Assembly (NCBI RefSeq): GCF_014138625.1
Contig: NZ_JACJHY010000023.1
Span: forward strand, 1-64,000
Direction: 5' to 3'
Origin: Aminobacter ciceronei
GTDB lineage: Bacteria; Pseudomonadota; Alphaproteobacteria; Rhizobiales; Rhizobiaceae
Length of the DNA stretch: 64,000 nt
A program made the translations under genes and the position numbers. This document shows, piece after piece, positions 16,805 through 35,324 of this stretch (within the stretch, counting starts at the first letter, position 1; each line of letters starts with the position of its first letter). Under the pieces are notes generated by a model. The model had not been told where the DNA came from and did no database searches. It was given only the letters and a program-made list of their open reading frames with translations.

Positions 16805-17189
16805 GTTTCCTCCCTTGGCCGAAGCCATCCTCAATGACCGTCGCGGGCGCCCCAGGCGCCGCTATGTGGATTGATTGCCGCCGGACTTCCTCCCGAAAGC
16901 CGACGGTCTGGAGATTACAGCTCACCCAGCATATGTCAATAAAATTCATATACTGAAATATATTTCAGATCAAGCCTCGCGATTCTGAATTTGCGCCGGG
17001 GCTGGTCGGGTCTCTGTGGTCGCTACAAAGCTAGACCTTTGTGCCAGCGTGCTGCCATGGCCAACCTTCGCGGATGAGATTTTTCCACTTGCCAATCCAA
17101 TTAGAAAATATCACCTTCGCAATGTGATGCATCAGTTGCAAAATCCAGGACATCAAAGTCTGGCTGATCGCTCAATGGAGAGGGTTCTC
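16805..17189. other. divergent promoter region between two ABC-transporter operons
   Basis: A 385-bp region separates the minus-strand sugar operon (start 16804) from the plus-strand NMT1-type operon (start 17190). It is clearly more AT-rich than its surroundings around 16930-16970 and 17095-17150, as expected for promoters. The only organised element I see is the double dyad at 16931-16968. No credible small gene. Confidence 0.6.
16931..16968. promoter_or_regulatory. paired palindromes, candidate operator
   Basis: Two adjacent dyads occur: ATATG-N11-CATAT (16931-16951) and the perfect 16-bp palindrome CTGAAATATATTTCAG (16953-16968). They lie about 130-165 bp upstream of the sugar-binding protein start, in an AT-rich island. 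The SorC-family regulator of the operon is the natural candidate ligand; the GntR protein of the divergent operon is the alternative. Confidence 0.55.
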
Positions 17190-19821: not shown

Positions 19822-19842
19822 GGGGCTGAGGAGCACAAGCTC

Positions 19843-20556
19843 ATGATCGTCGACGCCGACCCCACCGTGAATGCACCCGTTTCCGAGCGCATCTATCTGG
19901 CGCTCCGCCAGGAGATCATGCGTTGCGAGATCGTGCCGGGGACGACGCTTGATGCTGCCTCAATCGCCGGCAAGTACGAGGTGTCGAAGACGCCAGTGCG
20001 CGATGCCATGCAGAAGCTTGCCGCCGATGGACTGGTTACGATCCTGCCGCGCAGCGGCTATCGCGTCGCTCCCATCACCTTCCAGGCGGTGCACGACATC
20101 CTCGACATGCGCGCCGCGATCGGACCGCATGCCGCGCGGCAGGCGGCACGTTACGCCACGCCGGCGGAAATCGCGCTGCTGCGCCAGATCGTGAGGGAAT
20201 ATGCCCAGCCGATGGATATCGGCACCATGCAGCAGGTGGCTCGGCGCTTTCACCTCGCCATTGCCCGCTGCAGCCGCAACAAGCGTGTCGTCGCGCTTTC
20301 GGAGACCCTGTTCGACGAGCTCGAACGCCTGCTGCGCTTTGCCATCGATTTCACCGTCAAGGCAGGCGAGCATTCCGACGAGCACACGGCACTGGTCGAT
20401 GCGATTGCGGCCGGCGACGGCGAGCGGGCCGCGGCGATAGAGTTCGCCCATATCAAGCACTCCAGGGAGTTCCTGATCGAGCGTCTGATGACGCTGGGCT
20501 ACCTCTCGGCAAGCGAGATCCAGCTTGGCGGCGCAGCGCGGAGCCCGGCCGAATGA
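19843..20556 (+). CDS. GntR-family (FadR/FCD) transcriptional regulator
   Basis: A 237-residue regulator. The N-terminal winged helix-turn-helix includes VSERIYLALRQEIM and YEVSKTPVRDAMQKL followed by GYRVAPI; the all-alpha FCD ligand domain follows, with DILDMRAAIGPHAAR and the metal-site-type FHLAIARCSRN and DEHTALVDAIAAGD segments. FCD regulators usually sense an organic acid that is substrate or product of the operon. It follows the permease by 21 bp behind GAGGAG and its stop overlaps the next gene by 4 bp, so it is embedded in the operon it probably controls. Confidence 0.9.
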   Translation: MIVDADPTVNAPVSERIYLALRQEIMRCEIVPGTTLDAASIAGKYEVSKTPVRDAMQKLAADGLVTILPRSGYRVAPITFQAVHDILDMRAAIGPHAARQAARYATPAEIALLRQIVREYAQPMDIGTMQQVARRFHLAIARCSRNKRVVALSETLFDELERLLRFAIDFTVKAGEHSDEHTALVDAIAAGDGERAAAIEFAHIKHSREFLIERLMTLGYLSASEIQLGGAARSPAE

Positions 20557-21467
20557 TCGCGATCCCTGATGCGGCCGGCCGGTTGGCGGCAGCACTTGGC
20601 GGCGGCCCGGCAGCGCAGCTCGCGGCTTCGGCGCTGGTCGAGGCCGATGCTCTCGGCCTGCCGCGTTTCGGCATCGCCATGCTCGACGAATGGACTGTCG
20701 ATGCAGCGCCGGTGCCGGCACGCGAGAGCTCGCAGGCCATAGGCTGGCTCGACTGTGCCTCATGCTTTGCACCGCTGGCGGTCGCCAGCGCCACGCTCGA
20801 CCTTGCCGAGGCCGCCAGGCAGTTCGGCGTCGCCGCGGTGTTCCTGCGCGGTGTCAGGGGCTTTGGCCGGCTCGCACCCTTTGTTCGCCATCTCGCAGAT
20901 GGCGGCCTGCTCGGCATCGCCGGTGCGGAAGGCCCGCCTTTCGTCGCGCCACATGGCGGTACCCGTCCGGTGATCGGCACCAATCCGCTGGCGCTTGCCA
21001 TAGGGCAGGGTTCCGAACGCGTCGTCATCGATGTCGCCACCAGCACGGCAACCATGGCCGATATCCGCAACGCCCGTGCTTCGGGCGCGCCCTTGCCTGA
21101 GGGGATCGCCCTGGATGGCGAAGGACGGCCGACCAGAATCGCCGCCGAGGTTGCGGCATTGCTGCCGCGTGGCGGCCAGATCGGCTCGCTGCTCGGATTG
21201 GTGGTCGAGCTCATGGCCGGCGTCGCGGGTGGCGGCAGGGGAGATCCGAAAGGCCGGGGCGTGTTCCTGCTTGCCTTCGATCCGTCACGCGCGGGTGAAG
21301 GCATCGACTGGCAAGCCAGGCTGGCCGGGCTGAAGGGCGACTGGATCGAGGGCGGCGGTCACTGGCCGCGTGGCGGCCGCGCGGCACCCGAGGCCGTGCT
21401 GGACGACGATTTCGTCCAGCGTCTCGACACCTCTCTCGCCCGCATGACGATCCAGCCAGGCCGATGA
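20553..21467 (+). CDS. Atypical Ldh-family (malate/L-lactate dehydrogenase-like) protein
   Basis: A 304-residue member of the Ldh/YlbC/AllD NAD(P)H-dependent oxidoreductase family. Recognisable segments are VAPHGGTRPVIGTNPLALAI, VIDVATSTATMADI, PLPEGIALDGEGRPT and LLGLVVELMAGVAGGG. It is shorter than the usual 330-350 residues. The N-terminal HSHG motif with the catalytic His and the NHFG motif are absent: the matching places read LGLPRFG and GVRGFGRLAPF. It may have altered chemistry or be non-catalytic. It overlaps the GntR gene by 4 bp. Confidence 0.8.
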   Translation: MIAIPDAAGRLAAALGGGPAAQLAASALVEADALGLPRFGIAMLDEWTVDAAPVPARESSQAIGWLDCASCFAPLAVASATLDLAEAARQFGVAAVFLRGVRGFGRLAPFVRHLADGGLLGIAGAEGPPFVAPHGGTRPVIGTNPLALAIGQGSERVVIDVATSTATMADIRNARASGAPLPEGIALDGEGRPTRIAAEVAALLPRGGQIGSLLGLVVELMAGVAGGGRGDPKGRGVFLLAFDPSRAGEGIDWQARLAGLKGDWIEGGGHWPRGGRAAPEAVLDDDFVQRLDTSLARMTIQPGR

Positions 21468-21504
21468 CCACGCCGGTCAACCAGATGCAGAGTTTGTAAG
21501 CCAG

Positions 21505-22845
21505 ATGACCACAAAGCCCGTTTCAGCACCTGTCTTTTCCATCGATGTCTTGGACGGCCTGATCGACGAGCCGCGGCAGATCGTCGTCTCCGGCCTCGTC
21601 CCTGACGAACTCGTCGCCGTCTCTGCCCGCACCGAGCGGGCGCATGGCGTGACCTGGATGAGCCAGGCGACCTTCTTGGCGGACGCCGACGGCGTGGTCG
21701 ACCTGGCCCGCGACGCGCCGGTCGGCGGAGACTATGCCGAAGTTGCAGCCATGGGCCTGATCTGGAGCCAGCAGCCGGTCGACAGCACCAGCGCCGAGCT
21801 CTTCGCCGACGATATCATGCAGCCCATGGCGACGACGCTGACAGCCGAAACCGCCGGTGGCGTGCGGGCCGAGGCCAGGCTTTTTCAGGCTTTCGCCGCG
21901 CCTGGAGTGGAGCGATGCGAGATCCGCGACGACGGATTGGTCGGCACGCTGTTCACGCCCGCCGGGCCGGGACCGCATCCGGTCGTCATGGTGCTCAACG
22001 GCTCGGGCGGCGGCATTAACGAACCGCGCGCAGCACTGCTTGCGTCCCGTGGTTACCAGGCCTTTGCGCTCGGCTACTTCAAGGCGCCGGGGTTGTCGCC
22101 CTTCATCACCGAAACACCGCTCGAATATCTCGAGGCCGGCCTGCGCTGGGCGCGTCGAGAGCTCCAGCCGAAAGACGGCTTCGTTGCTGTCAGCGGCCAG
22201 TCGCGCGGCGGCGAACTCGCGCTGCTGCTCGGCGCCACGTTCCCTGAACTGGTCTCCGCCGTGATTGCTTTCGTGCCAGGTGCTGTGGTCCATGGCGCCC
22301 AGGGCGCGGGCGATCCGGCACGTGGCGGCTGGCAAGGCACGACCTGGACAAGGGGCGGCGTTCCGCTGCCCCATCTGTGGCAGGACAATGCCGCCGTGCA
22401 CTGGCATCCCTGGGCCGGCGAGGCTCCGCCCAGCCGGCATCACTCGGTCTTCTTCGAAGGCTTGAAGGACACCAAGCTTGCGGCCCGCGCGCGCATTCCA
22501 GTCGAGAACATTGCGGGTCCGGTGCTGCTGATCTCGGGCCGTGACGACCGCGCCTGGCCGTCCAGCCTCTATTCCCGCATGGTCGCTTCGGCCTTGCGGA
22601 AGCACGACCATCGTCATCTGGTCAGGCATCTCGATTTCGACGATGCCGGTCACGCCATCAACCTGCCGATTGTGCCGTCGACCCAGATCAGTCGCCTGCA
22701 TCCGGTGTCGAAGGTCCCTTACACCAATGGCGGCACGCCCTCCGGCAACTCGAGGGCCGACACCGGCTCTTGGCGCGGCATGCTCGCCTTCCTGGACGAG
22801 ATCACCGGGGCCGCCACCCACCAGAATGCCCACGCAAAAAGCTGA
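21505..22845 (+). CDS. BAAT/acyl-CoA thioesterase-family alpha/beta hydrolase
   Basis: A 446-residue protein with the two-domain layout of bile acid-CoA:amino acid N-acyltransferases and type I acyl-CoA thioesterases. An N-terminal beta-rich Bile_Hydr_Trans domain (about residues 10-130) is followed by a BAAT_C alpha/beta hydrolase domain. The nucleophile elbow is SGQSRGGELAL, with Ser as in thioesterases rather than the Cys of BAAT; SGRDDRAWPS and DDAGHAIN supply the likely acid and His. Bacterial members have few known substrates. It follows the Ldh-like gene by 37 bp and precedes the DUF1684 gene by 22 bp. Confidence 0.82.
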   Translation: MTTKPVSAPVFSIDVLDGLIDEPRQIVVSGLVPDELVAVSARTERAHGVTWMSQATFLADADGVVDLARDAPVGGDYAEVAAMGLIWSQQPVDSTSAELFADDIMQPMATTLTAETAGGVRAEARLFQAFAAPGVERCEIRDDGLVGTLFTPAGPGPHPVVMVLNGSGGGINEPRAALLASRGYQAFALGYFKAPGLSPFITETPLEYLEAGLRWARRELQPKDGFVAVSGQSRGGELALLLGATFPELVSAVIAFVPGAVVHGAQGAGDPARGGWQGTTWTRGGVPLPHLWQDNAAVHWHPWAGEAPPSRHHSVFFEGLKDTKLAARARIPVENIAGPVLLISGRDDRAWPSSLYSRMVASALRKHDHRHLVRHLDFDDAGHAINLPIVPSTQISRLHPVSKVPYTNGGTPSGNSRADTGSWRGMLAFLDEITGAATHQNAHAKS

Positions 22846-22867
22846 ATTCTTCGAAAGGGAGACGAAC

Positions 22868-23755
22868 ATGCCCACAAGAGAACATTTGGAAGGCCAGTGG
22901 CGCGAATGGCGCTACGCTCATGTCGCCAAGATGTTCCGGCCTTATGGCTGGACCTCGCTGGTCGCCCAGTACTGGCTGGAAGCCGGCGACAAGGACGTCA
23001 GCTTCGACCTGCTCCCCGGAACCTGGTCGGTCGAGGACACCAAGGTCATGTTCACCCCGCCCGCTTCGGGGCCGAACCTCTCCGTCAATGGCACCTATCC
23101 GACCGAGCCGATCGAGATCATTCCGGGCCGCAACCAGACCTATGGCCACGGCAAAAGCGAGCCCGTCTATTTCGGTGTCAACGAGGTCGAAGCTATCCTG
23201 CGCAGCAGGAATGACGGCAAGTCGCTTTATGGTGTGCGCGTGCGCGATCCGCGCGTGGCGACGACGGTGGAGGAGGCGGGCGTTTCCGCATTCGACTACG
23301 ATCCAGCATGGCGTATTCCCGGCGTCTACACGCCGACTGATATCACCGAATACGAGGCGGAAACCGTCGAAGCCGGTGTGCGTGAATCGACGCCGCGGAT
23401 CGGCACCTTCACCTTCGAGCACAATGGCAAGAGCTATACCATCGAGCTGATCGGCAAGGACACGGCAACGGGCGTGCAGCCGGTGGCCCACGTCCGCGAC
23501 AAGACCAGTGGCCCCGTCACCTACGGTGCCGGCCGCGTCATCGAACTGCAGTTCACCGACGGCACCAACAGCCGCATCGACTGGATCGATTTCAACTATG
23601 CGGTGGCGCTGCCATGCGCCTTCACCAACTTCGTCACCTGTCCGCTGGTCCCGCGCGAGAACCAGCTCGATTTCGAGGTTCTCGCCGGTGAAAAGCGCCC
23701 GGCGCGGGACGTGGTCAGGACGATGACCTATCAGGCTGGCACAGACGCCGCCTGA
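22868..23755 (+). CDS. DUF1684 family protein
   Basis: A 295-residue protein started by an ATG behind AAAGGGAG. The signature C-terminal segment ALPCAFTNFVTCPLVPRENQL, preceded by VTYGAGRVIEL and IDWIDFNYA, identifies the DUF1684 family; KSLYGVRVRDPR is also typical. Function is unknown. No signal peptide or membrane segment. Last gene of the operon beginning at 17190, so it probably acts on the imported compound together with the BAAT-type hydrolase and Ldh-like protein. Confidence 0.85.
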   Translation: MPTREHLEGQWREWRYAHVAKMFRPYGWTSLVAQYWLEAGDKDVSFDLLPGTWSVEDTKVMFTPPASGPNLSVNGTYPTEPIEIIPGRNQTYGHGKSEPVYFGVNEVEAILRSRNDGKSLYGVRVRDPRVATTVEEAGVSAFDYDPAWRIPGVYTPTDITEYEAETVEAGVRESTPRIGTFTFEHNGKSYTIELIGKDTATGVQPVAHVRDKTSGPVTYGAGRVIELQFTDGTNSRIDWIDFNYAVALPCAFTNFVTCPLVPRENQLDFEVLAGEKRPARDVVRTMTYQAGTDAA

Positions 23756-23852
23756 CAGGCATTTGCCGCTCACGCGTGCGGTTCCCGATGTGGTGGGGTG
23801 ACAGACACCTCGCCATTTGCAATCACTTCTGTTTCGACAGGAGGCGCGGGCG

Positions 23853-24155
23853 ATGATGACGGGAGCGATGTGCAGGGCGGCGCGTGCGCTGGTGGAAATC
23901 AGCCGGCAAAGACTGGCTGTGGCCTCCAGCGTCGACGAGGCCGATATCGAGGCCTTCGAACGCAAGACCGGCATCCCGGACGATGCCGCCATTGGCGCGC
24001 TTCAGGCGGCATTGGAACATTACGGCGCCGTCTTCATCCCCGAGGAGGGCGGCAATGGCGCGGGCGTGCGCCTGAAGTTCAGCCGGTCGGTGACCAAAAG
24101 ACTGTCGATGCTCGAGGGCGAGGGCGGGCCTGCCGCCAGCGACGACGTTCCCTGA
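23853..24155 (+). CDS. Small XRE-like helix-turn-helix protein
   Basis: A 100-residue protein (99 if the adjacent ATG at 23856 is used). AGGAGG lies eight bases upstream of the first [38 protein letters not shown] and [16 protein letters not shown] form the pattern of short rhizobial XRE-type regulators. The HTH is degenerate compared with classical Cro/CI proteins. It stands alone between the DUF1684 operon and a lipase-like gene; no target is evident. Confidence 0.7.
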
Positions 24156-24210
24156 GGCGGCTCATGATCTCGTCCTTGAGGCTATCGGGCAATCCGGTCT
24201 AGCTTCACGC

Positions 24211-24939
24211 ATGCGACTGTTGTCTGCCCTGTTGTTGTCGCTTGTGTCGTCGGCCGCCTTTGCGCAAGACTGCGTCGTGCTGCTGCATGGCCTCGCGCGC
24301 TCCGACGTGTCCTTCCTGCTGATGGAAGAGACATTCACCAAACTCGACTACGCCGTCGTCAGCGACACTTATCCTTCGGTCGAGGCGCCAATCGGGCAGT
24401 TGATCGCCCATGTCGGTGCGTCGGCGGCAAAGTGCGGTCCGGCAGCCAGGGTCAACTTCGTCACCCATTCGATGGGCGGTATCCTGCTCCGGGCCTGGCT
24501 GAAGGACAACCGGCCGCCAAATCTCGGCCGGGTGGTGATGCTTGCGCCGCCCAACCACGGCTCCGAGGTCGTCGACACGCTCGGCGGCCTCAAGTTGTTC
24601 GAGATGCTCAATGGCCCCGCCGGCATGCAGCTCGGCACGGGGCCGGACAGCGTTCCGAACCAGCTCGGTGCTGCGGATTTCGAGGTCGGCATCATCGCCG
24701 GTGACCGCAGCGTGAACCCGATCCTGTCGACGATGTTCGACGGGCCCAATGACGGCAAGGTGTCGGTGGAAAGCACCAGGCTCGCCGGCATGGTCGACCA
24801 CATCGTGCTGCCGACCACCCACACCTTCATGATGAACAATCCGCTGGTCATCGCCCAGACGATCAACTTCCTGCGCGACGGACGGTTCGACCACCAGCTG
24901 ACATTGGGCGAACTGCTGCGGCGCGGGCTGGGCAACTGA
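24211..24939 (+). CDS. Exported lipase-like alpha/beta hydrolase
   Basis: A 242-residue protein with a clear Sec signal peptide ([19 protein letters not shown]). The mature protein opens with [10 protein letters not shown] (oxyanion region); THSMGGI is the nucleophile elbow, and TTHTFMM near the end supplies the likely catalytic His. It resembles small triacylglycerol lipase/esterase-like proteins of Rhizobiales. Probably periplasmic. No operon partners are obvious. Confidence 0.82.
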
Positions 24940-25008
24940 GCGGGGAAGGCCCGGCGAGTTGGTTGCTGCAAAAGTCCTGAACAGCTGGCAGGAAGTGCCG
25001 CATCGGCG

Positions 25009-26097
25009 TCACTCGCTGTGGTAGTCGTCGATGAGCATGCGCTCGAAATCGAGCCCGCGCTGCCAGTTGTTGAGACGGCGATAGACGGCGTGGCCATAGT
25101 CGTCAGGCAGGTCGACCCGGCCATCGGTCTCCACCAGGACGCAGGCGCGCAGCCGCTTGCGATGTTCGTGGACCTTGGCAAGCGTGACGGCGCGGACGCG
25201 CTCGCGCGGCACGTTCCGCGCTTTCATCTGAGCGACGCCGTCGCGAACCGCTTCTTCAGTGGGTTCCACTGTCAGCCATGTCTCGGGGTCGCCGAAGATA
25301 TGGCGGCCGCCGATCGAGGGCGTCGAGACGACGGGCAGCCCGGCAAGCAGGTATTCGATGCTGGCATACATCGCGCCTTCTTCCGCCGACAGGCACAGGC
25401 CGGTGGCGCTTGCCGCCATGACCGAATTGATCGCCCGCCAATCGAGCTTCTCGATGCGGTGGCCATCGTGCGGGTTGAGAAAGTGATGCGCTGGCATCAT
25501 GCGCTTGAGCTCGTCGAGCAGATCGGCGGTCTTCTGTCGTCCGGTGAGGCGCGATTCGTAGAAGACGTGCGCGGCGCTTGGCACCAACCGGGCCAGGTGA
25601 CGGCGTTTCCAGGGACTGATCATGGCGTTGTAGAAGGCATCGTAGGTGTTCTCGACACCAGATACGGGCTTGAACGTCTGTTCGTCGGCCAGGGCATTGT
25701 GGCTGCAGAACAGCGCGTTCAGTCCATTCTCGCGAAATAGCGCGACTTCCTCGAGTTCGTTGCACATGAAGACGAAGCGATGCTCGGGAAAGCGGCGGCG
25801 ATAGAGCCGCTCAGCGGTCAGCGTCCGCAGGACCTGCCGCTCCTTGCGCATCGCCCAAGTGAACCAGACGAGAAACAGGGCAGGGCGGGCGGCCAAGCGA
25901 GATCCAAGATAGTTCGCAACGCCGAGTGGCGCGTGATTGAGCATCGAGGAGGTAAATACGGGGCACGAGCCGTCGTCGAGCCGCCCCGCTGCCATCCTGA
26001 GTTCTGCTCCAGCCCTTGTCGCTGCATCAGGTGCAAAGCCGGGTCCGGCGTGGATTCGGGTTCGGTAAGCTAGCCTCAGCTTGTTCTTCAGTCGCAT
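25009..26097 (-). CDS. Glycosyltransferase-like protein (GT-B type)
   Basis: A protein of about 362 residues with a GT-B-like C-terminal half: LCLSAEEGAMYASIEYLLAGLPVVSTPSIGG resembles the nucleotide-sugar-binding EX7E region of family 1/4 glycosyltransferases. The N-terminal half is not recognisable to me. I choose the ATG at 26097; a GTG at 26130 is possible and neither has a strong ribosome site. It is divergent from the PqqD/HprK-like cluster with 224 bp between and, given the two GT2 genes there, probably belongs to the same island. Confidence 0.72.
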   Translation of the reverse strand: MRLKNKLRLAYRTRIHAGPGFAPDAATRAGAELRMAAGRLDDGSCPVFTSSMLNHAPLGVANYLGSRLAARPALFLVWFTWAMRKERQVLRTLTAERLYRRRFPEHRFVFMCNELEEVALFRENGLNALFCSHNALADEQTFKPVSGVENTYDAFYNAMISPWKRRHLARLVPSAAHVFYESRLTGRQKTADLLDELKRMMPAHHFLNPHDGHRIEKLDWRAINSVMAASATGLCLSAEEGAMYASIEYLLAGLPVVSTPSIGGRHIFGDPETWLTVEPTEEAVRDGVAQMKARNVPRERVRAVTLAKVHEHRKRLRACVLVETDGRVDLPDDYGHAVYRRLNNWQRGLDFERMLIDDYHSE

Positions 26098-26321
26098 GTT
26101 GCCCACAAGCCGTGCCCATCCAAGGCTCACCTATCGCATGGGAACCACCCGACAGAGAAGGGCCACGGAGAGGTGCCGAAAATTGCCACCAAAAACAATC
26201 TGGACGCGAGTATTGCGTTTTGCAATGCAACCCTATAGATATCCCGGCCCGCAGCTGTTGCTTATATGTGCATTTGCTTGATAAGCAGTTTGCCGGGAAA
26301 AAACCTAGGGGTAGGGCAGGC
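26098..26321. other. divergent promoter region of the PqqD/HprK-like island
   Basis: A 224-bp gap between the divergent glycosyltransferase and the PqqD-like gene. It turns AT-rich from about 26170 and contains an imperfect dyad TTGCAATGCAA near 26220. I searched both strands for a short peptide gene of the RiPP-precursor kind with a ribosome site and found none convincing. Confidence 0.5.
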
Positions 26322-26747
26322 GTGGGGTATTCGACAATTTACGCGGTCTCGGGCAACGACATCGTCTATGAGACGTTCGATGGTGACGCGGTCGTTCTCG
26401 ACCTCGCCAGCGGCAGGTATTTCGGCTTCTCCGACAGCGGCAGCTGTGTATGGGAAGCGCTGATCGCACAGGTTCCGCCGGCAAGTCTGGTCGGCCGCAC
26501 CTGCGGCAGCGGACAGCTTTCCGCCGCCGACCTGGATGCTTTCATTGCCAGGCTGAACGAGTATGGACTGCTTTCGCCTGCGACCGGCATGGCATCGGCC
26601 GCATTGTCGCCCGAGCTCGCGCAGCGCCTGGCGGCGGCCCGCGAGGCGCTCAAGATCGACATGCACGACGAGCTCGCCGACCTGGTGATGGTCGACCCGA
26701 TCCACGACGTCGACGAGCCTGCCGGCTGGCCGGCGGTGAAGCAGTAG
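26322..26747 (+). CDS. PqqD-related protein (HPr-rel-A system type)
   Basis: A small protein of about 141 residues. The N-terminal half (YETFDGDAVVLDLASGRYFGF, then SGSCVWEALIAQ) is the PqqD/RRE fold that binds leader peptides in RiPP pathways. I place the start at the GTG at 26322, with only a weak AGGG upstream; the frame is open further upstream but not coding-like. The C-terminal half is Ala-rich and unfamiliar. No PqqA/B/C/E or radical-SAM partner is present, so this is not PQQ synthesis. The next gene is an HprK-like kinase, the pairing seen in HPr-rel-A systems. Confidence 0.8.
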   Translation: MGYSTIYAVSGNDIVYETFDGDAVVLDLASGRYFGFSDSGSCVWEALIAQVPPASLVGRTCGSGQLSAADLDAFIARLNEYGLLSPATGMASAALSPELAQRLAAAREALKIDMHDELADLVMVDPIHDVDEPAGWPAVKQ

Positions 26748-26795
26748 CGCCGGTTTCCGGCGCATTTCGATACCACTTGCTGCCTTCAGGTTCCG

Positions 26796-27848
26796 ATGCG
26801 ACGTGTAACCCTTGACGATCTTGCCGACTATGCGCGCGAGCTCCTCGCCGCCTGCGAGGCGAATGCCGATGCCTTTCCCGGGAAAAGCCGGGTCGAGCTG
26901 CCCGGCCTGGCGATCGACGTGTTTTCCGATCACGGCGAACTGGCGAGGGCGCTTGGCCATGGCATGGTTGCAGAGATAGCTGCCGGACGACCGGCGACGC
27001 CGGGGCGGATTTTTCTCGCCCACCCTGGCATTGGCTCGATTCCGCAGCCGGCGTTGTGGGGCGAGGCGCTGTTTCATCCGAACATGTTTTCCGAGCGGCT
27101 CGAAGCCAACGGCCTGCGCGGCCATTACTTCCACGACCTCAGCTACTGGCAGTTCTACGATGTCGAAAAGCGGCTGGGCGTGCAGCTCATGCGGTCCGCC
27201 GACGGCTGCCCGCCATGGGAGTTCGGTGCCCCGCTGCGCTGCTTCCTGCATTGGGAATATGCGGCGCGCGGCATGCGCCTCACGCATGCCGGAACGCTCG
27301 GCAAGGGCGGCAGGGGCGTGCTGCTGGCCGGGGCCGGCGGCGCCGGCAAGTCGGGCACGGTCGCCTCGGGCCTGCTTGCCGGGCTCGACAGCGTCGGTGA
27401 CGACTACGTGCTGGTCGAATTCGACGGTGACCGTTCGCTGGCGCGCCCATTGTTCACGACGCTGAAGCAGGACCAGGCGGGTTTCGACCGACTTGGGCTA
27501 GCTCGGCTGTTGCCCGATCCAGGCCTCCTCAACTGGCAAGGCAAGTACCAGTTCAGGGTCCAGGATCTTTGCCCGCGTGGCGTCGCCAGTGAACTCGACA
27601 TCGTGGCGCTGCTTGTGCCGCAGATATCGGGCGCCGCGCAAAGCACCATCACGCCGCTTTCGCGCAAGGACGCGCTTATGGCGCTGGCGCCGTCCGGCAT
27701 CGCGCAGATGCCGGGCGAACGCGAAAGCGGATTTCGTTTCTTTGGCGAGCTGACACGTCGGTTGCCGTGCTACACTTTGACACTGGGCACGCGCGGCAAC
27801 GAGATCGCGGAGACGATCGCCGCGTTTCTGGATAGGGGCAATTCATGA
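26796..27848 (+). CDS. HprK-related kinase (HprK-related kinase A type)
   Basis: A 350-residue protein with a P-loop LLAGAGGAGKSG (GAGGAGKSG at 179-187) followed by SVGDDYVLVE, the pattern of the HPr kinase/phosphorylase catalytic domain. The N-terminal ~165 residues are not the usual HprK N domain. No HPr, PTS or PTS regulatory gene is nearby, so the target is unlikely to be HPr. Related kinases occur in lasso-peptide and PqqD-containing clusters. The stop overlaps the next gene by 4 bp. Kinase fold is well supported; substrate unknown. Confidence 0.82.
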   Translation: MRRVTLDDLADYARELLAACEANADAFPGKSRVELPGLAIDVFSDHGELARALGHGMVAEIAAGRPATPGRIFLAHPGIGSIPQPALWGEALFHPNMFSERLEANGLRGHYFHDLSYWQFYDVEKRLGVQLMRSADGCPPWEFGAPLRCFLHWEYAARGMRLTHAGTLGKGGRGVLLAGAGGAGKSGTVASGLLAGLDSVGDDYVLVEFDGDRSLARPLFTTLKQDQAGFDRLGLARLLPDPGLLNWQGKYQFRVQDLCPRGVASELDIVALLVPQISGAAQSTITPLSRKDALMALAPSGIAQMPGERESGFRFFGELTRRLPCYTLTLGTRGNEIAETIAAFLDRGNS

Positions 27849-28606
27849 AGCTGGGCATCGTGCTGCCCGTCTACAACCGCGAGAGCTACATCGGCTCGGC
27901 GCTGCGCTCGGTTTTGCGACAGAGCGACGCCGCGCAGCTCGACATCATCGTCATCGACGACGGCTCGGTCGACGGTACCGTGGCGGCTGTGCGGTCATTC
28001 ATCGCCGACGGCGCGCCGATCCGCCTGTTCTCACAAGCCAATTCAGGCGTGACCAAGGCGCGCAATGCCGGCCTGCGCCGGCTCTCTGACGACACCGAGT
28101 TCGTCTCCTTCATCGATTCCGACGACATCTCACCCGCCGGGCGCTTTGCCGCCGACCTTGCCTATTTCAAGACCGATCCGGCGCTCGAACTCACCTATTC
28201 CTACATGCGCATGGTCGACCAGATCGACGACGAGACGCTCGAGCCGGTTGCAGGATGCGACGACCGCATCTTTCGCGGCGTGCATCTGTCGGCCGGCATC
28301 TATCGGCGCAGCCTGATCGCGCGGATCGGCGATTTCGACGAGGAGCTGGCGCAGGCAGAGGACACCGACTTCCTGTTTCGCATCTTCGAGCAGAGGGCGC
28401 GATTTGTCTTTCCCGACACGATCGCGCTCTACTACCGCCGCCATGAACACAATCTGACCCGGAACGTCGCCGAGTCGCGGCGGGAGTTCCTCAAGGCGAT
28501 GCAGAAATCGATGCGCCGCCGCAAGGCCGACCCGACGCTCGGCGACCTCAGAGGTTTCATCCAGGTGGCGCATCCGTCGGGCGATGGGGCGCCGCTGCGG
28601 TCATGA
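27845..28606 (+). CDS. Family 2 glycosyltransferase
   Basis: A 253-residue GT-A enzyme. LGIVLPVYNRESYIGSALRS and IIVIDDGSVDGT form the nucleotide-binding strand, SFIDSDD is the metal-binding DXD-like motif, and LAQAEDTDFLFRI resembles the ED catalytic-base region. No membrane segment, so cytoplasmic, using a nucleotide sugar. It overlaps the genes on both sides by 4 bp. Confidence 0.88.
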   Translation: MKLGIVLPVYNRESYIGSALRSVLRQSDAAQLDIIVIDDGSVDGTVAAVRSFIADGAPIRLFSQANSGVTKARNAGLRRLSDDTEFVSFIDSDDISPAGRFAADLAYFKTDPALELTYSYMRMVDQIDDETLEPVAGCDDRIFRGVHLSAGIYRRSLIARIGDFDEELAQAEDTDFLFRIFEQRARFVFPDTIALYYRRHEHNLTRNVAESRREFLKAMQKSMRRRKADPTLGDLRGFIQVAHPSGDGAPLRS

Positions 28607-29277
28607 GCTACAGCGTCGTCATTCCCGCCTGGAACGCGGCCCGCACGATCGCCGAGACGCTGCGCTCGGTTGCCGCGCAGACAGTGCCGCCTGCCGAGAT
28701 CATCGTCGTCGATGACGGCTCGACCGACGAGACCGAGGCGGTGACGCGGCAATCGGGCGTTCCGGTCCGATATGTCAGGCAGGACAACTCCGGACCGGGC
28801 AGTGCCACGACGCGCGGCTTCGCGCTGGCCAGGGCGCCCTTCATTGCAACTGTCGACGCCGACGATCTGTGGCTTGGCGACAAGATCGAGCGTCAGTTTC
28901 GCAGGCTGGAAGAGGCGCCGCAGCTGGCTGCCGTGTTCACGCAGTGGCGAACCTTTCGGCATGGCGAACCAGACGATGGCACCGGCAAGGTGACGCCCGG
29001 CTGGTCGCGCACGACGATGTTGTTCCGTAGCCAGGTGGCGCTTTCCGTCGGCCCGGTGATCGACCCGCCAGGCAACCGCGGTGAAATGGTCGACTGGCTT
29101 GGCCGGGCCCGCGAAGACGGCCACCAGCTCGGCATGATCGATGAGGTCCTGGCCCTGCGCCGGATCCTGCCGGGAAGCATGTCCTACGGCCGCGATCCCG
29201 AGCGCGACCGTAGCTATCTCGAGGTCGCAAGAATGGCCATGCTGCGGCGCAAGCTCAAGAACGCCGGACAGGGCTGA
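28603..29277 (+). CDS. Family 2 glycosyltransferase
   Basis: A 224-residue GT-A enzyme paralogous to its upstream neighbour but shorter. SVVIPAWNAARTIAETLRSV, IIVVDDGSTDET and ATVDADDLW (DXD-like) are visible; NRGEMVDWLGRAREDG takes the place of the usual ED base region. The stop overlaps the next ATG by one base (TGATG). Its place between the HprK-like kinase and the nucleotidyltransferase implies co-function in one biosynthetic unit. Confidence 0.85.
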   Translation: MSYSVVIPAWNAARTIAETLRSVAAQTVPPAEIIVVDDGSTDETEAVTRQSGVPVRYVRQDNSGPGSATTRGFALARAPFIATVDADDLWLGDKIERQFRRLEEAPQLAAVFTQWRTFRHGEPDDGTGKVTPGWSRTTMLFRSQVALSVGPVIDPPGNRGEMVDWLGRAREDGHQLGMIDEVLALRRILPGSMSYGRDPERDRSYLEVARMAMLRRKLKNAGQG

Positions 29278-30758
29278 TGGCATCCACGTCACGCCGCATC
29301 GGCCGGCGCTTCCCCGACTATGGCTGGGCATGGCCAACCAACGGTCTCGACCAGTTGCTCAAGGCGGTGCTGTTGCCGGACCATGCGGTCGCGCAGACGC
29401 AGGCCTTGCGGTGGCTCGATGCCAACGACATCGATGCCGTCGAGTTCCGCGAGCACAGGCTGCTTGCCGCGATCGCCGACCGGTTCGGCAAGGCGCTGGC
29501 GATGCATCCCGCCTATCCGCGTCTCGCTGGCCTGCAGAAGATGCTGTGGACCAAGTCGCGGCTTGCCATGCGCGAGGCCGAGCCCGCACTGAGGGCCATC
29601 GTCGCGGCCGGCGTGCCGATCATGCTGCTCAAGGGCGCGAGCCGCATCGCGGTGGAGCCGGCGGCACAGCGCGGCCGGGTGGCGCACGACATCGACATCC
29701 TTGTGCACCCCGAGCACATGGTGGCCGCCTTCGACATGCTGCGTCATGGCGACTGGCAGGTGTCGACAGGGGTCAGTCCCCAATATCTCAAGCCGCGGTT
29801 AGCTGCGGTGCGGTCGATGAATTTCTTCAAGGGCAGCTATGGCGACATCGATCTGCACCAGGTCGCTTATGACTGGTCGCAGGCAGATGAGGCGGACGAC
29901 GCTGCGGTTTGGCAGCGCGCCACGCCGGCCTCCTTCACCAGTCTCGACGTGCTGGTCCCTTCGACCGCCGACCGGGTGACGCTGGCGATCGGCCATGGCG
30001 GCCTCGACGCTCATACCCACAGCGACTGGCTGGTCGACACGGCCTCGGCGATCCGCGCCGGCGGCGTCGACTGGGCCGTGCTTTGCGACGTCGTCGCCCG
30101 CAGGCACCTTGCCGTGCCGACGGCGGTGGCGCTGAGCTATCTGAAAGCAGAGATGTCGGTGCCGGTTCCCGACGATGTGCTGGAGCAGGTGGTCGACATG
30201 GCCGATCGCGCCGGCGCCGCCCGTATCGCTGCCTTGCTGCAGGCCAAGCCGCGGACCGACTTCAAGGGTCTGACCTGGCTGTCACGCGGTGTCGCCAAGC
30301 AGTTGCGCATGCGCAAGAAACGCGCTGTCCGTGAGCGCGAGCTGCCCGGCGTCGTCTGGCACGGTCGGCGCACACAGGCGGGCGATGGTGCGGGGCAGGT
30401 CACCCCGGCACTGGCGCAGCAGGTGCCGTTGCCGCCGGCGGCAGTTGGCGGTGCGCCTGCCGAGATCGACATTGTCGTGCGGCTGGACGTGCCGCCGGTG
30501 CGCCGTCGCATCGAGATGGAGCTGAATGGCGGCGAATGCCATTTCGCGCGGTTGCGCTATCGCAAGCTGGGTAAATCAGGCGGCCGGCTGACCTTGCGGT
30601 TTCGCGGTACCATCCGGCCGGACCAGGCGGATGGCGCGTTGGTGCTGTCGGCGCGGCCGTCGCGACAGTTCCGCGCGTGGGAGCATGAGCAGACGGTCGC
30701 CACCTATGGTGCGGTGCCGTTCCAGATCGTCTCGGTGACCGTTTCGCCGGCTCGCTGA
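29277..30758 (+). CDS. NTP_transf_5-family nucleotidyltransferase
   Basis: A 493-residue protein. IMLLKGASRIAVEPAAQRGRVAHDIDILVHPEHM is the hallmark of the NTP_transf_5 group (LKG, then R and DID metal-binding residues), a nucleotidyltransferase family that recurs with lasso-peptide, PqqD and HprK-like genes. The C-terminal ~110 residues look beta-rich and are unassigned. Last gene of the plus-strand island; 120 bp downstream a cobalamin riboswitch starts an unrelated operon. Confidence 0.82.
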   Translation: MASTSRRIGRRFPDYGWAWPTNGLDQLLKAVLLPDHAVAQTQALRWLDANDIDAVEFREHRLLAAIADRFGKALAMHPAYPRLAGLQKMLWTKSRLAMREAEPALRAIVAAGVPIMLLKGASRIAVEPAAQRGRVAHDIDILVHPEHMVAAFDMLRHGDWQVSTGVSPQYLKPRLAAVRSMNFFKGSYGDIDLHQVAYDWSQADEADDAAVWQRATPASFTSLDVLVPSTADRVTLAIGHGGLDAHTHSDWLVDTASAIRAGGVDWAVLCDVVARRHLAVPTAVALSYLKAEMSVPVPDDVLEQVVDMADRAGAARIAALLQAKPRTDFKGLTWLSRGVAKQLRMRKKRAVRERELPGVVWHGRRTQAGDGAGQVTPALAQQVPLPPAAVGGAPAEIDIVVRLDVPPVRRRIEMELNGGECHFARLRYRKLGKSGGRLTLRFRGTIRPDQADGALVLSARPSRQFRAWEHEQTVATYGAVPFQIVSVTVSPAR

Positions 30759-30877
30759 GCCGGAGAACAGTTTGCGCTGCCTGCAGTTCCGCGCAACCTG
30801 GTCTCAGCATCGTCGCGGCTCAGGCAAATGCCGCCCTGTATAGTCCCGGATGGCAACTTGACTTTACCTTGGCCGTC

Positions 30878-31056
30878 GATAGGTTGGCGCCGTCATGGTC
30901 TTCCGCCGCGAGGTGGAAGCTAAGAGGGAATCCGGTGCGAAACCGGAGCTGTCCCGCAACTGTAAGCGGTGAGCCTATTGCCCCTGTGTCACTGGCATTC
31001 GTGCCGGGAAGACGGGCGACAAGGCTAGGACCCGCGAGCCAGGAGACCTGCCTGAC
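30878..31056 (+). ncRNA. Cobalamin riboswitch
   Basis: The conserved B12-aptamer landmarks appear in order: AAGAGGGAATCC near 30922, a GGTGCGAAACC hairpin, CCCGCAACTGTAAGCGG, a GGGAAG segment, and the 3' box GCCAGGAGACCTGCC at 31038-31052. It precedes a corrinoid/iron-type importer. Adenosylcobalamin binding is expected to lower expression of the four-gene operon. The 280 nt from the aptamer to the first start codon is long and should contain the expression platform; I could not pick one terminator or sequester helix with certainty. Confidence 0.95.
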
Positions 31057-31336
31057 AGAGTGAGATTCCGTGGTCGGGGTGTGCCACAGGAATGCCGGTT
31101 CCCGTCCGGAAGCCCGTTTGCGGCTTTTGCCAGGTCTGCATTTCCGCATCCCCGCCAGGGCAGTCAGAGGTTGGCGCGGCGATGTCGGGAAGAACGGTTT
31201 CCCCAGAATATCGAAAGTTTGGGCGGACGCATTCGTCGCCTGCTGCCGTGGCATCGCGCCTCTACCTATTGTCCCGGACGCCTTCCGGGCATGGCAACGC
31301 CAGGCGTTGCGCACCCCTTTCAAGCAAGGAGAGATC

Positions 31337-32386
31337 ATGAACATCAGACATTGGATCCTTTGGCTCGGGCTCGCCGCGGCATCCGCCATTGGCCTTGCGC
31401 CGGCGGCCGCGGATAGCTTCACGGACGATGCCGGCCGAACGGTCGAGCTGGAACTGCCGATCAAGCGGGCGGTGATCTTCAACCGCTACGCGGTCGAGTT
31501 CGCCCGCGCCATTGGCGCCATCGACAAGGTCGTTGGCGTCGATGCCAGCACGATGCGGGATCCGACCTACTGGCCGCAGTTCAAGGAAGCCGACATTGTC
31601 GGCCAAGGCCAGACGCAGCCCAATTACGAGGCGATCGTTGCGCTCAAGCCGGACCTGGTCATCATCCCTCGCAACGGCGTCTATGAGGAGGCAGCCAAGC
31701 AGCTCGAAGCCTTCGACATTCCGGTGCTGGTCGTCACCGCCTGGGACACGCTGCAGCATGTCGAAAACGTGACATTGTTCGGCAAGCTGTTCGACGAGAA
31801 GGAAAAAGCCGATGCGCTGAACGCCTACTACACCAAGTACATGGACCTGCTGGCCGAGCGTCTGAAGGGCGTCGAGCGTAAGAAGGTTTATCTTGAAGAG
31901 GTCCGTGATCTCGTGACCGTCACGCCCGGCTCAGGCTGGCACGACATGATCGAGGCCGGCGGCGGCACCAATGTCTTCGGCGACATCGACATCAAGAAGG
32001 AGCCGTCGTCGCGCGGCAACGAAAACAGCTTCACCGTCGATCCCGAGGAGATCATCGCGCGCAAGCCCGACCTGGTGATCAAGCTGCAGCCCGGCTCCTA
32101 CCAGACCATCCCGGAGGCAAAATTCGCCGAGAGCTGGAGGGCGATCGTCGCGCGCGAGGAAATATCAGGCACGCCGGCAGGGCAGGCGGGCGATGTCCGC
32201 CTGATCAACTACTACCTCGCCGGCGGCTCGTCCAAGGTCACCGGCGCGCTGCAGGTCGCCAAGTGGCTCTATCCCGACCTCTTCACCGACGTCGATCCCG
32301 AGGCTGCGATGAAGGAATGGATCGAGATCTACCAGGGGCTGCCGTTCCAGGGCGGCATGACCTACCAGGGCACAGCCTCCAACTGA
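31337..32386 (+). CDS. Cobalamin/siderophore-type ABC substrate-binding protein (BtuF/FecB-like)
   Basis: A type-III periplasmic binding protein of 349 residues, started by an ATG behind AAGGAGAG. The signal peptide is IRHWILWLGLAAASAIGLAPAAA. DDAGRTVELELPIKRAVI is the typical opening of the Peripla_BP_2 family, and YEAIVALKPDLVI and ARKPDLVIKL are the lobe motifs. The family binds corrinoids, ferric siderophores or haem. The B12 riboswitch upstream argues for a corrinoid or cobalt-related ligand. First gene of the riboswitch operon. Confidence 0.88.
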   Translation: MNIRHWILWLGLAAASAIGLAPAAADSFTDDAGRTVELELPIKRAVIFNRYAVEFARAIGAIDKVVGVDASTMRDPTYWPQFKEADIVGQGQTQPNYEAIVALKPDLVIIPRNGVYEEAAKQLEAFDIPVLVVTAWDTLQHVENVTLFGKLFDEKEKADALNAYYTKYMDLLAERLKGVERKKVYLEEVRDLVTVTPGSGWHDMIEAGGGTNVFGDIDIKKEPSSRGNENSFTVDPEEIIARKPDLVIKLQPGSYQTIPEAKFAESWRAIVAREEISGTPAGQAGDVRLINYYLAGGSSKVTGALQVAKWLYPDLFTDVDPEAAMKEWIEIYQGLPFQGGMTYQGTASN

Positions 32387-32395
32387 TCGACCAGC

Positions 32396-32422
32396 ACGCC
32401 GCCGCCCGTCAGGCGGCGGCGT
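32396..32422 (+). terminator. hairpin between binding-protein and permease genes
   Basis: A perfect 11-bp GC-rich stem (ACGCCGCCGCC / GGCGGCGGCGT) with loop CGTCA starts 10 bp after the binding-protein stop. No T-run follows, so it probably stabilises the upstream mRNA or reduces readthrough rather than terminating completely. Confidence 0.65.
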
Positions 32423-32448
32423 ACCCTCTCAATCCGGAGCCTTAGACC

Positions 32449-33552
32449 ATGGACATCGCAAGCAGTGCCGGTTTGGCGCGTGGCCAATCCGACGGCATTT
32501 CCAGCCTCTACCGCCGAGCTGGCTATCGCAAGGCGGCTGTCATCTTGTGGTCGCTGCTTGTGCTGCTGCTCGTCGCCGGCGGCGTTGCCATCGTCGGCAT
32601 CGCCGAGACGGGGCTGGTGACGCTGCTCATGGTCATCCTGCAAAAGGTCTCGTTCGGCCATTTCGTCGCCGAGGTCGATCCGCAGCAGGCGCGGGTGCTC
32701 GTTTATCTGCGCCTGCCGCGCGTCGTCATGGCCATGGTAGCCGGTGGGTCACTGGCATTCGCCGGTGTTTTGATGCAGGCGATCACCCGCAATCCGCTGG
32801 TTAGCCCCTACACGATCGGCGTGTCCTCGGCGGCGGCCTTCGGTGCCTCGATCGCCATCATGTTCGGCATAGGCTTCAGCGCCGCCGGGCTCTATTTCGT
32901 GCCGCTGACGGCATTTCTGTTCGCGCTCGGCTGCGCCGTGCTGGTGTTCTCCATGGCCTGGCTGCGCGGCATGGGGGCACAGACGATGGTGTTGACCGGC
33001 ATTGCCCTGATGTACCTGTTCAGCGCCATGACTGCAGCCGTGCAGTTCGTCGCCACCCAGGAGCAACTGGCCCGGGTCGTGCACTGGACGTTCGGCAGCC
33101 TGAACGGCATCGGCTGGGATGCGGTTGCCGTCTCTGGTGCGGCACTGCTGGTCGCCCTGCCGCTGGCGCAGTCGCGGGCCTGGCAATTCAACGCGTTGAC
33201 GAGCGCCGGCGACGACGTTTCGCGTTCGCTCGGCATCAATGTCGCGCTGCTGCGCGGCATCGCCGTCGTGCTGTCGGTGGTGGTCTCGGCGGTGGTCATC
33301 AGCTTCACCGGCGTGATCGGCTTTGTCGGGTTGATCGGGCCGCATGTCGCCCGGCTGCTGATCGGCAGCGACCATCGCCATCTCATCCCGTTTTCGGCGA
33401 TCTGCGGCGCCATGCTGCTGCTTCTGGCCGACACTGTCGGGCGCATGGCGTTCAGCCCGACAGTCATTCCGGTCGGCATCGTCGTCGCCTTCGTCGGCGT
33501 GCCGCTGTTCCTGCACCTGATCCTGTCCAGGCGCTCGGAGTATTTTTCATGA
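32449..33552 (+). CDS. FecCD/BtuC-family ABC permease
   Basis: A 367-residue inner-membrane permease with about ten hydrophobic segments. RLPRVVMAMVAGGSLAFAGVLMQAITRNPLVSPYTIGVSSAAAFGA is the FecCD hallmark, and FVGLIGPHVARLL the C-terminal one. It imports the ligand delivered by the upstream binding protein. It overlaps the ATPase start by 4 bp. Confidence 0.92.
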   Translation: MDIASSAGLARGQSDGISSLYRRAGYRKAAVILWSLLVLLLVAGGVAIVGIAETGLVTLLMVILQKVSFGHFVAEVDPQQARVLVYLRLPRVVMAMVAGGSLAFAGVLMQAITRNPLVSPYTIGVSSAAAFGASIAIMFGIGFSAAGLYFVPLTAFLFALGCAVLVFSMAWLRGMGAQTMVLTGIALMYLFSAMTAAVQFVATQEQLARVVHWTFGSLNGIGWDAVAVSGAALLVALPLAQSRAWQFNALTSAGDDVSRSLGINVALLRGIAVVLSVVVSAVVISFTGVIGFVGLIGPHVARLLIGSDHRHLIPFSAICGAMLLLLADTVGRMAFSPTVIPVGIVVAFVGVPLFLHLILSRRSEYFS

Positions 33553-34322
33553 GCGACTATCTTTCCGTCGACAAGGTCAGCTTCGGTTATGGCAGCCGCC
33601 CCGTGCTGCGCGAGGTCTCGGTCGGGCTGACGAAGGGCGACATACTCGGCCTCATCGGCCCCAATGGTGCCGGCAAGTCGACCCTGGTGCGGACCGTGCT
33701 CGGCCTTGCCACGCCGTCGTCGGGGCGGATCCTGCTCGACGGCCACGACATCCGCGCAATGTCGCCCAAAGTCCGCGCCCGCCGGATCGCCTATGTGCCG
33801 CAATCCTCGCCGCTCAGCTTTCCAGCGACGGTGTTCGAGACCTGCCTGCTCGGTCGCACACCGCATATGGGGGCGAGCCCGAGCCGTGGTGATCTCGCCG
33901 TCGTCGAGGACATGCTCAGGCGGCTGCGCCTCGAGGATTTCGCCTTCCGTCCGATGTCGGAGCTCAGCGGCGGCGAACGCCAGCGTGTGATGCTTGCGCG
34001 TGCCCTGGCGCAGGAGACCGAGGTGCTGGTGCTCGACGAGCCGACGAGCGCGCTCGATATCGGCAACCAGCTATTCACCCTGCGCGTGGTGGCCGAGATC
34101 GCGCGCGAACGAGGTGTGACGGCACTGGTCGCCATTCATGACCTGTCGCTCGCCGCCCGCTTTTCCGACAGCCTGCTCCTGCTCGACAAGGGCGCCGTTG
34201 TCGGCCATGGCAACTGGCGGAGCACGTTGACCGAACAGACGGTGCGCGACGTCTATGGCGTCAATGTAGAGATCGGGCTGCTGCGCGACATTCCCGTTTT
34301 TGCCCCGCACGAGCTGACCTGA
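33549..34322 (+). CDS. BtuD/FecE-type ABC ATPase
   Basis: A 257-residue ATPase. Walker A GPNGAGKST, signature LSGGERQRVML, Walker B VLVLDEPTSALD and the switch His in AIHDLSLAARF are all present. The order permease then ATPase and the strong FecE/BtuD pattern fit corrinoid/siderophore import. The stop overlaps the following ATG by one base (TGATG). Confidence 0.92.
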   Translation: MSDYLSVDKVSFGYGSRPVLREVSVGLTKGDILGLIGPNGAGKSTLVRTVLGLATPSSGRILLDGHDIRAMSPKVRARRIAYVPQSSPLSFPATVFETCLLGRTPHMGASPSRGDLAVVEDMLRRLRLEDFAFRPMSELSGGERQRVMLARALAQETEVLVLDEPTSALDIGNQLFTLRVVAEIARERGVTALVAIHDLSLAARFSDSLLLLDKGAVVGHGNWRSTLTEQTVRDVYGVNVEIGLLRDIPVFAPHELT

Positions 34323-35317
34323 TGCGGCTCGACATTTCAGGCTTTGCGCGAGGGGGAAGGGCCCAGAGCCACGCTTCGGTGTTGCGGCTCTGCGAAGACG
34401 TCGAGCGCATGGGCTTCGACGGCATCTGGTTCAACGAGTTTCATTTCCAGAACCCGCCGCAGGCTTATCCGTCGACCTTGATCCTCGCCTCCGCCATCCT
34501 TGCCCGGACGCAGCACCTGCGGGGCGGCACCTCCATCGTGGTGACGCCGCTATACCATCCATTCCTCTTGGCTGAGGAGGTGGCACAGTTGCACTGGCAG
34601 AGCGGCGGCCGCATCGACCTGGGCATCGGCCGTGGCACACATCCGGCGACGCTTGCCGCGCTGGGCATCGCCGCCGAGAGCACCAGGGCTCGTTTCGAGG
34701 ACTCCTACCGGATCATGCGCGATGCCTGGACATCAGGCGCAAGGATCGAAGAGGGCGCGTGCTGGCCGGCTTCGGAGGTTTCGGTTGGACCGCTTCTTCC
34801 AGGCGAGACGGTACCGGTCTATGTCGCCGGCACCTCGCGCGACACGCTTGGCTTCGCCGCCCGCGAGGGATTGCCGTTGCTGCTCAGTCTCGATCCGCCT
34901 GAAGTCGGGCAGCTTGCCACCTACCAGGCAATCCTCGAGGAGGAGGGCCATGCCTGCCGTCTGCGGGCGTCGCAACTGTCTCGCTATGTCTGCATCGCTC
35001 CGACGACGGTGCAGGCGATGGGCAAGCTCGACGAGCTCGTGCCGCGGCTGTTCGAACGTCGGGTTGCGTCGGCAAAGGCCGCAGGGCGGTCTACTGACCA
35101 GATCGTGATGCCCGACCGGCAGACGGCCATGGCGCGGCAGGTGATTGCAGGCTCGCCGGACGATTGTGTGGCGCAGCTCAAGGCGCTGGCGGCAGTTACG
35201 GGTATCGATGCCATGCGCCTGGTCTTCAACGGCAACGGCATCGTCGACATGGCGGCGGCGCTCGCCGACATGGAGTTTTTCGGACGCGAGGTGCTGCCAG
35301 CCTTGCGGCCCGCCTGA
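34322..35317 (+). CDS. LLM-class (luciferase-like) flavin-dependent oxidoreductase
   Basis: A 331-residue luciferase-like monooxygenase. GFDGIWFNEFHF, IVVTPLYHPFLLAEEVAQLHWQSGGRIDLGIGRG and YVAGTSRDTLGFAAREG are family motifs of the TIM-barrel FMNH2- or F420-using enzymes. It starts within the ATPase stop codon, so it is translationally coupled to a B12-riboswitch-controlled importer. It may release or modify the imported corrinoid/siderophore or its ligand, or replace a B12-dependent step. Substrate unknown. Confidence 0.85.
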   Translation: MRLDISGFARGGRAQSHASVLRLCEDVERMGFDGIWFNEFHFQNPPQAYPSTLILASAILARTQHLRGGTSIVVTPLYHPFLLAEEVAQLHWQSGGRIDLGIGRGTHPATLAALGIAAESTRARFEDSYRIMRDAWTSGARIEEGACWPASEVSVGPLLPGETVPVYVAGTSRDTLGFAAREGLPLLLSLDPPEVGQLATYQAILEEEGHACRLRASQLSRYVCIAPTTVQAMGKLDELVPRLFERRVASAKAAGRSTDQIVMPDRQTAMARQVIAGSPDDCVAQLKALAAVTGIDAMRLVFNGNGIVDMAAALADMEFFGREVLPALRPA

Positions 35318-35324
35318 GCGCGTC

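Follow-up and report, generated by a model that had tools for sequence, protein, structure and literature searches.

What is modified by a compact bacterial gene set that encodes a kinase, two glycosyltransferases and a nucleotidyltransferase-like protein? The question is raised by five plus-strand genes of Aminobacter ciceronei, here called D, K, GT2a, GT2b and N, which lie in a stretch of 64,000 nucleotides (the window) from contig NZ_JACJHY010000023.1. A first-pass annotation had noted these genes and suggested that they act on a peptide, a protein or a surface glycan, with the acceptor either missing or one of the encoded proteins. In our view the chances are slightly better than even that the cassette is a self-contained peptide- or protein-modifying system of the kind that combines a RiPP recognition element (RRE), an HprK-like kinase and an NTP transferase, with GT2 glycosyltransferases added and with the peptide built into the RRE protein, D. 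The features on which the argument rests are as follows.

26322–26747, plus strand: D, a PqqD-like protein of 141 residues with a GTG start (PF05402, 25.7 bits; cut-off 23.4)
About residues 14–88 of D (26322–26747), plus strand: lasso-B1-type RRE domain (PF05402, TbiB1 profile match, Foldseek)
26640–26657, plus strand: residues 107–112 of D, the place of a leader-like segment (register −18 to −13 from DPIH)
26682–26732, plus strand: residues 121–137 of D, the conserved tail core LVMVDPIHDVDEPAGWP (conservation in 19 loci retrieved with K; low pLDDT)
26796–27848, plus strand: K, a kinase of the HprK/phosphoenolpyruvate carboxykinase (PEPCK) superfamily, 350 residues (weak HprK-type matches, invariant columns, model)
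27330–27356, plus strand: P-loop of K, GAGGAGKSG (sequence, alignment)
27845–28606, plus strand: GT2a, a GT2 glycosyltransferase (PF00535, 81.8 bits)
28603–29277, plus strand: GT2b, a GT2 glycosyltransferase (PF00535, 103.7 bits)
29277–30758, plus strand: N, NTP_transf_5 nucleotidyltransferase-like, with a C-terminal region of no named family (PF14907, 57.3 bits; cut-off 31.2)
25009–26130, minus strand: divergent GT-B-like gene, an optional neighbour outside the core (weak Pfam match, 21.0 bits; cut-off 27)

By sequence comparison D is an RRE of the lasso B1 type with a C-terminal peptide, which is conserved and predicted to be disordered; this the first-pass annotation had overlooked. A profile of D searched against the PDB matched lasso B1 proteins (TbiB1, E = 3.8e-14), so that one mark of lasso systems, a B1-type RRE, is present. 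The top fold matches of the D model are TbiB1–leader complexes, at a Foldseek E of only 0.007. The tail has the consensus ...DDLADLxxxDPIHxVxExxGWP and occurs in all 19 D proteins of a set of loci which, having been fetched by K alone, was not selected for it. In this set the commonest residue of a column has a mean frequency of 0.54 for the RRE (residues 14–88), 0.42 for the linker, 0.739 for the tail (residues 112–137) and 0.79 for its core (residues 121–137), while the best other 26-column stretch within residues 1–111 reaches 0.684 at most; Leu121, Asp125, Pro126, His128, Gly135 and Trp136 are invariant. The AlphaFold2 model of D has a pLDDT (predicted local distance difference test) below 50 at residues 120–136 and a short predicted strand at 112–115. 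That the tail is conserved yet predicted to be disordered suggests a binding or substrate peptide.

The tail is absent from all five RREs examined that adjoin lasso B2 genes, and searches for stand-alone copies returned none: the window tail matched one plasmid record only, a PqqD protein, and the tail of L054, the locus on a plasmid of the cyanobacterium Crinalium, matched L054 alone. Genome samples were also searched for matches to D that reach the end of the tail. The window's phylum has them in 6 of 398 genomes, that of L133 (Puniceicoccaceae) in 7 of 337 and that of L130 (Chlorobiaceae) in 4 of 296; all 17 cover the RRE too. One additional match is partial (G741, 19–131, with an internal stop).

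The five genes D, K, GT2, GT2 and N form a conserved unit. Full-length relatives of K are present in five of ten Aminobacter genomes, the window genome included, and, across the family, 17 of 297 genomes have one at E < 1e-50 (31 genomes match at E = 0.001). All of the 19 kinase-retrieved loci contain D, and 18 have the order D–K–GT2–GT2–N, L053 being rearranged. A scan of genome contigs with D found 226 relatives, from which 79 loci were obtained; with L054 these make 80. Since one of the two patterns searched for was the tail itself, its conservation is demonstrable from the 19 kinase-retrieved loci and not from these 80 alone. K accompanies the tailed D in 79 of the 80, and the order D–K–GT2–GT2(–GT2)–N is kept in 74, a few of them with one extra model-matching neighbour; 31 have the third GT2. 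The remaining loci comprise L113, whose contig stops shortly after D, K and one GT2; L131 and L132, where N was not seen nearby; L133 and L054, with other gene orders; and L119, the sole tailed D with neither K nor N, which adjoins a GT2 and a GT8. This last arrangement (L119:8980–11072, tailed D, then GT2 and GT8) is a second tailed D of Mesorhizobium sp. ES1-1, a genome that also has a full cassette (L061). Tailed D proteins were also found in Chlorobiaceae (L130), Puniceicoccaceae (L133), a Solimonas (L069) and the Crinalium plasmid. Recurrence of the five genes in other genera and phyla makes the set more than a chance assembly, and the neighbourhood comparison proposed at first pass thus upholds the view that the genes are conserved together. 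The cassette flanks vary from genus to genus.

A further 11 distant loci fetched by D all contain K; ten have GT2 genes (the exception is L196) and ten an N-type gene (the exception is L202). K is fused to a GT2 in L133, L199, L214, L215 and L216, and the five fused kinases share one clade of the kinase tree (support 98/96), which is consistent with a single fusion event. Several distant loci have three to six GT2 genes. We note also that the distant relative L198 adjoins GT4 glycosyltransferases and L200 TPR-containing glycosyltransferases, and that the kinase of the Chlorobiaceae locus L130 is nested among mainly alphaproteobacterial kinases, the position that horizontal transfer would give.

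K lies above no Pfam cut-off in the Pfam scan. Its residues His164, Lys185, Asp202 and Asp203 are invariant among 57 sequences and align with those of HprK; judged from this alignment, K keeps the equivalents of the catalytic His-Lys-Asp-Asp of the lasso-precursor kinases (PMC9266682). The K model has a pLDDT of 93.1, and its top fold match is an ATP-dependent PEPCK (E = 2.5e-9, TM-score about 0.5 by query length). Because PEPCK outranks HprK, whose matches begin at rank 36, the unfamiliar N-terminal domain may be PEPCK-like. A kinase tree was built from 36 cassette kinases (25 of the 57 aligned and the 11 distant ones) together with 17 other HprK-like kinases, of which 11 come from loci with the B2 protease family PF13471. 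These outsiders are 17 of 26 non-cassette loci found with the K profile, L001 (a true HprK), L023, L025, L026, L031, L032, L034, L171 and L174 being omitted. The cassette kinases fall on one side of a branch with support 94/91, apart from all 17; the placement of the long branches L201, L203 and L024 is unsure. In N, Asp138, Asp140 and Asp192 are invariant in an alignment of 16 sequences, and a search of the PDB found no relative of this protein.

The tail itself may tell how it is used. In lasso and LPP (linear polyphosphorylated peptide) systems the leaders carry [Y/W]xxPx[L/V/I/F/A] (PMC13381572), and W/Y/LxxP/L/I is described for many RRE groups (PMC12710340). In eight of ten distant D proteins a segment [YF]xxPx[LIVMF] begins exactly 18 residues ahead of DPIH; with a later set of three loci from the L130 phylum the count is nine of 13. 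In these motif-bearing tails the invariant Asp of DPIH thus stands 18 residues past the aromatic residue. In the LPP motif YxxPxVLxHQxIxFETxxS the phosphorylated Ser3 lies, by hand count, 18 residues past the Tyr (PMC13381572), and in BsfA, with YxxPxL at −17 to −12, a Ser3 that is phosphorylated in a variant lies 19 residues on (PMC10368454). Because the register of the Asp equals that of the LPP target Ser, the analogy suggests that the DPIH peptide is located where LPP- and lasso-type kinases act, as acceptor or as pseudosubstrate. Of 88 distinct tails, 45 have Pro and 37 have Leu at position −15, and 83 have Val, Leu, Ile, Met or Phe at −13. The window tail has neither the aromatic residue nor the Pro; a relic of the leader motif appears to be the most that remains in it, and the core is fully kept.

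Several observations weigh against the reading favoured here. The leader motif was first spotted by eye in the same ten sequences in which it was then tested, so that the shuffling test (5000 shuffles of those segments, on average 0.53 motif matches of ten, never eight) is post hoc; in the later set it occurs once in three, the other two D proteins having LxxLx[LI] at the same place. The other 78 distinct tails, that of the window included, have neither the full motif nor an aromatic residue at −18. Published relatives phosphorylate Ser, while in 70 of the 88 tails the 14 residues that begin with DPIH include no Ser, Thr or Tyr. These three form the majority in no tail column and are lacking from the last 35 residues of the window D. 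When the segment from −12 to the C-terminus is considered, just 20 of 88 tails, the window's among them, are free of these residues. A C-terminal Ser, the residue modified by paeninodin kinases (PMC9266682), is found in 27 of the 88; the window tail ends in Gln. Many of the Ser-ending tails come from Mesorhizobium copies (L058–L098). D was modelled alone, and the position of the tail on the RRE is not readable from that model. The PEPCK matches make a small-molecule substrate of K possible. No peptidase was found among the 20 window proteins put through family scans (17016–36569), and L133 and L199 are the only loci in which exporter-type ABC genes were recognised inside the cluster, most flanks not having been scanned with Pfam.

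The closest published kin of the cassette, by analogy of gene content, are LPP and paeninodin-type systems, and the five genes look like the tailoring part of a lasso-peptide pathway. HprK-like kinases phosphorylate precursors whose leaders bind RREs (PMC13381572, PMC10368454), and PMC9266682 describes both the His-Lys-Asp-Asp motif and hexose transfer by PsmN. With the LPP loci of Bacillota (Popov et al. 2026, PMC13381572) the cassette shares a discrete RRE, an HprK-like kinase and an NTP transferase, all three found together here; no cyclase was seen alongside among the 20 window proteins scanned. In its distant members it also shares a leader motif like [Y/W]xxPx[L/V/I/F/A], and some loci have ABC genes. 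Those of L133 and L199 are of exporter type, have membrane and ATPase domains and are placed between N and K; the annotated ABC ATP-binding protein of L054 is farther from the cassette. Unlike LPP, the cassette includes two GT2s in its core, has the leader-like motif and the conserved peptide joined to the RRE within one protein, and occurs in other phyla. Neither an SpI-like leader peptidase nor an exporter was found among the 20 window proteins (the rest of the genome and the relatives were not searched for SpI), and no separate LPP-type precursor emerged as a small-ORF family in at least four organism groups across the 80 loci, YxxPxVLxHQ not having been searched for genome-wide. The phosphorylated lasso peptides paeninodin, pseudomycoidin and Bsf (PMC9266682, PMC10368454) likewise have a B1-type RRE, an HprK-like kinase with His-Lys-Asp-Asp and an NTP-transferase-type protein; here, by contrast, there are GT2s, no B2 in the genome and no precursor gene that could be found.

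Borosin precursors are fused to their own enzyme, a methyltransferase. The cassette resembles them in having a candidate precursor peptide in cis with the machinery, the partner there being a methyltransferase and here an RRE. The HPr-rel-A set pairs an HprK-like kinase (TIGR04352) with a PqqD-like protein, as the cassette does, and the first-pass annotation had named it among the classes in which such kinases recur. We rejected membership of that class: K scores 30.1 bits against an equivalog cut-off of 200 for TIGR04352, and D does not match the HPr-rel-A PqqD-like model, the only PqqD-like models that it matches being two lasso ones at 21 bits, under their cut-offs. TIGR04352 is matched by all 19 family kinases scanned, with a best E of 4.3e-9. 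No literature linking PqqD, HPr kinase and Mesorhizobium was found.

An acceptor encoded close by was sought in the 80 loci. Small open reading frames (ORFs) of 18–79 residues, taken between 2.5 kb ahead of the matched genes and 1.5 kb past them, gave no family in at least four organism groups, and the conserved small ORF that the first pass had put forward as a possible acceptor was thus not found. Clustering of flanking ORFs of at least 80 residues gave six clusters in at least four organism groups. The largest consists of ABC ATPases (12 groups) and the other five reach four or five groups; by eye these are permeases, an epimerase-like enzyme and an apparent antisense ORF, and none is acceptor-like.

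These results bear on four other explanations. It is unlikely, though still the strongest of the four, that the acceptor, be it a peptide, a protein or a component of the envelope, is unlinked to the cassette and that the tail is a pseudo-leader, held in the groove of D until the true substrate displaces it. The tail would then be a pseudosubstrate, because the Asp of DPIH occupies the position of the target Ser of LPP kinases: that Ser is at Tyr +18 (PMC13381572, hand count), and motif-bearing D tails have the invariant Asp at [YF] +18. The general lack of Ser, Thr and Tyr from the tail cores speaks for this account, as does the usual binding of peptides by RREs in trans. Such an acceptor would have to be widespread, however, since the unit recurs in several phyla, and the flanks and small ORFs of the 80 loci share no acceptor-like family. 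We consider it improbable that the product of the enzymes is a small molecule, such as a phosphorylated oligosaccharide, with K acting on a sugar or small acid and D a mere scaffold. The PEPCKs at the head of the fold matches of K, and the distant loci with three to six GT2s or with GT4 and TPR-glycosyltransferase genes, would fit such a product; a B1-type RRE and a near-invariant tail with a leader motif would be left unexplained.

A decayed or split lasso locus, with precursor, B2 and cyclase elsewhere, is very improbable. Paeninodin-type loci do have a B1-type RRE, an HprK-like kinase and an NTP transferase, and 11 of 19 cassette-bearing genomes of the family have PF13471 at a site away from the cassette, compared with one of ten cassette-free genomes. 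However, PF13471 has no match in the window genome or in any of the five cassette-bearing Aminobacter genomes, of which the window genome is one, and is present in only one of nine further genomes or records (one a plasmid record only). The cassette kinases are split from the 17 other HprK-like kinases, and the B2-adjacent RREs are tail-less. As the first pass had stated, there is no lasso enzyme locally: no Asn synthetase-like cyclase is among the 20 window proteins, to which the cyclase search was confined. That K is an HPr kinase regulating a phosphotransferase system is scarcely credible, and we rejected it. The two share HprK-type motifs, but for hpr-ser (TIGR00679), where the cut-off is 240 bits, K scores 14.1, and contig C14 of the same genome carries a short HprK (47.2 bits, above the Pfam cut-off) beside genes for EIIA and HPr. 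At L001:199–2792 of that contig a sensor histidine kinase, the short HprK, EIIA-man and HPr stand in a row.

The earlier observation of the locus is confirmed. The five packed genes were correctly described, with a 48 nt gap between D and K and overlaps of 4, 4 and 1 nt at K/GT2a, GT2a/GT2b and GT2b/N; the PqqD-like, GT2 and NTP_transf_5 assignments hold at Pfam scores over the cut-offs, and the HprK-like assignment is borne out by weak HprK-type matches and the P-loop. The divergent GT-B-like gene is present, with a match below the cut-off, and is not part of the unit, adjoining the cassette in four of the 80 named loci and five of the 19 kinase-retrieved loci. The earlier interpretation is partly supported: the acceptor looked for among the encoded proteins now has a candidate in the C-terminal peptide of D, proposed from its sequence. 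The 3' edge of the unit is clear because a cobalamin riboswitch (30879–31068), just beyond N, leads into the next operon. There (30879–35317) the riboswitch is followed by genes for a periplasmic binding protein, a FecCD permease, an ABC ATPase and a luciferase-like monooxygenase, by sequence an operon for uptake of the B12 or metallophore type that includes a gene of the luciferase family. A defence system was considered and rejected, PADLOC giving no matches for six proteins.

The most likely reading, by analogy, is a new variant of LPP/paeninodin-type tailoring in which the leader and an acceptor or docking peptide are fused to the RRE. The RRE of D would hold its own tail in cis as a leader and present DPIHxVxExxGWP to the cassette enzymes, upon which the GT2s, K and N would assemble a glycosylated, phosphorylated and perhaps nucleotidylated group. 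In the leading form of this scheme the group would be assembled on the D tail itself; in the other, the tail would dock enzymes that act on a molecule bound in trans. More specifically, though here we are doubtful, D may be a precursor fused to its own recognition element, whose RRE binds the leader-like tail in cis and whose DPIHxVxExxGWP receives a sugar, phosphate or nucleotidyl group on His, Asp or Trp and not on Ser. If so, the product would be a protein-bound or later-released peptide cofactor with a core nearly invariant across phyla.

It would be unusual for an RRE to carry its own leader motif; the excerpts of the RRE surveys PMC12710340 and PMC7470986 describe no such architecture. 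HprK-like kinases and NTP transferases are found time and again in loci that modify peptides towards end products not yet described, and the authors of the LPP study did not identify its final product (PMC13381572). The cassette offers a compact and widespread version of such a locus. As there is one obvious candidate site and no extra precursor was found, the roles of the NTP transferase and the glycosyltransferases are testable from five genes.

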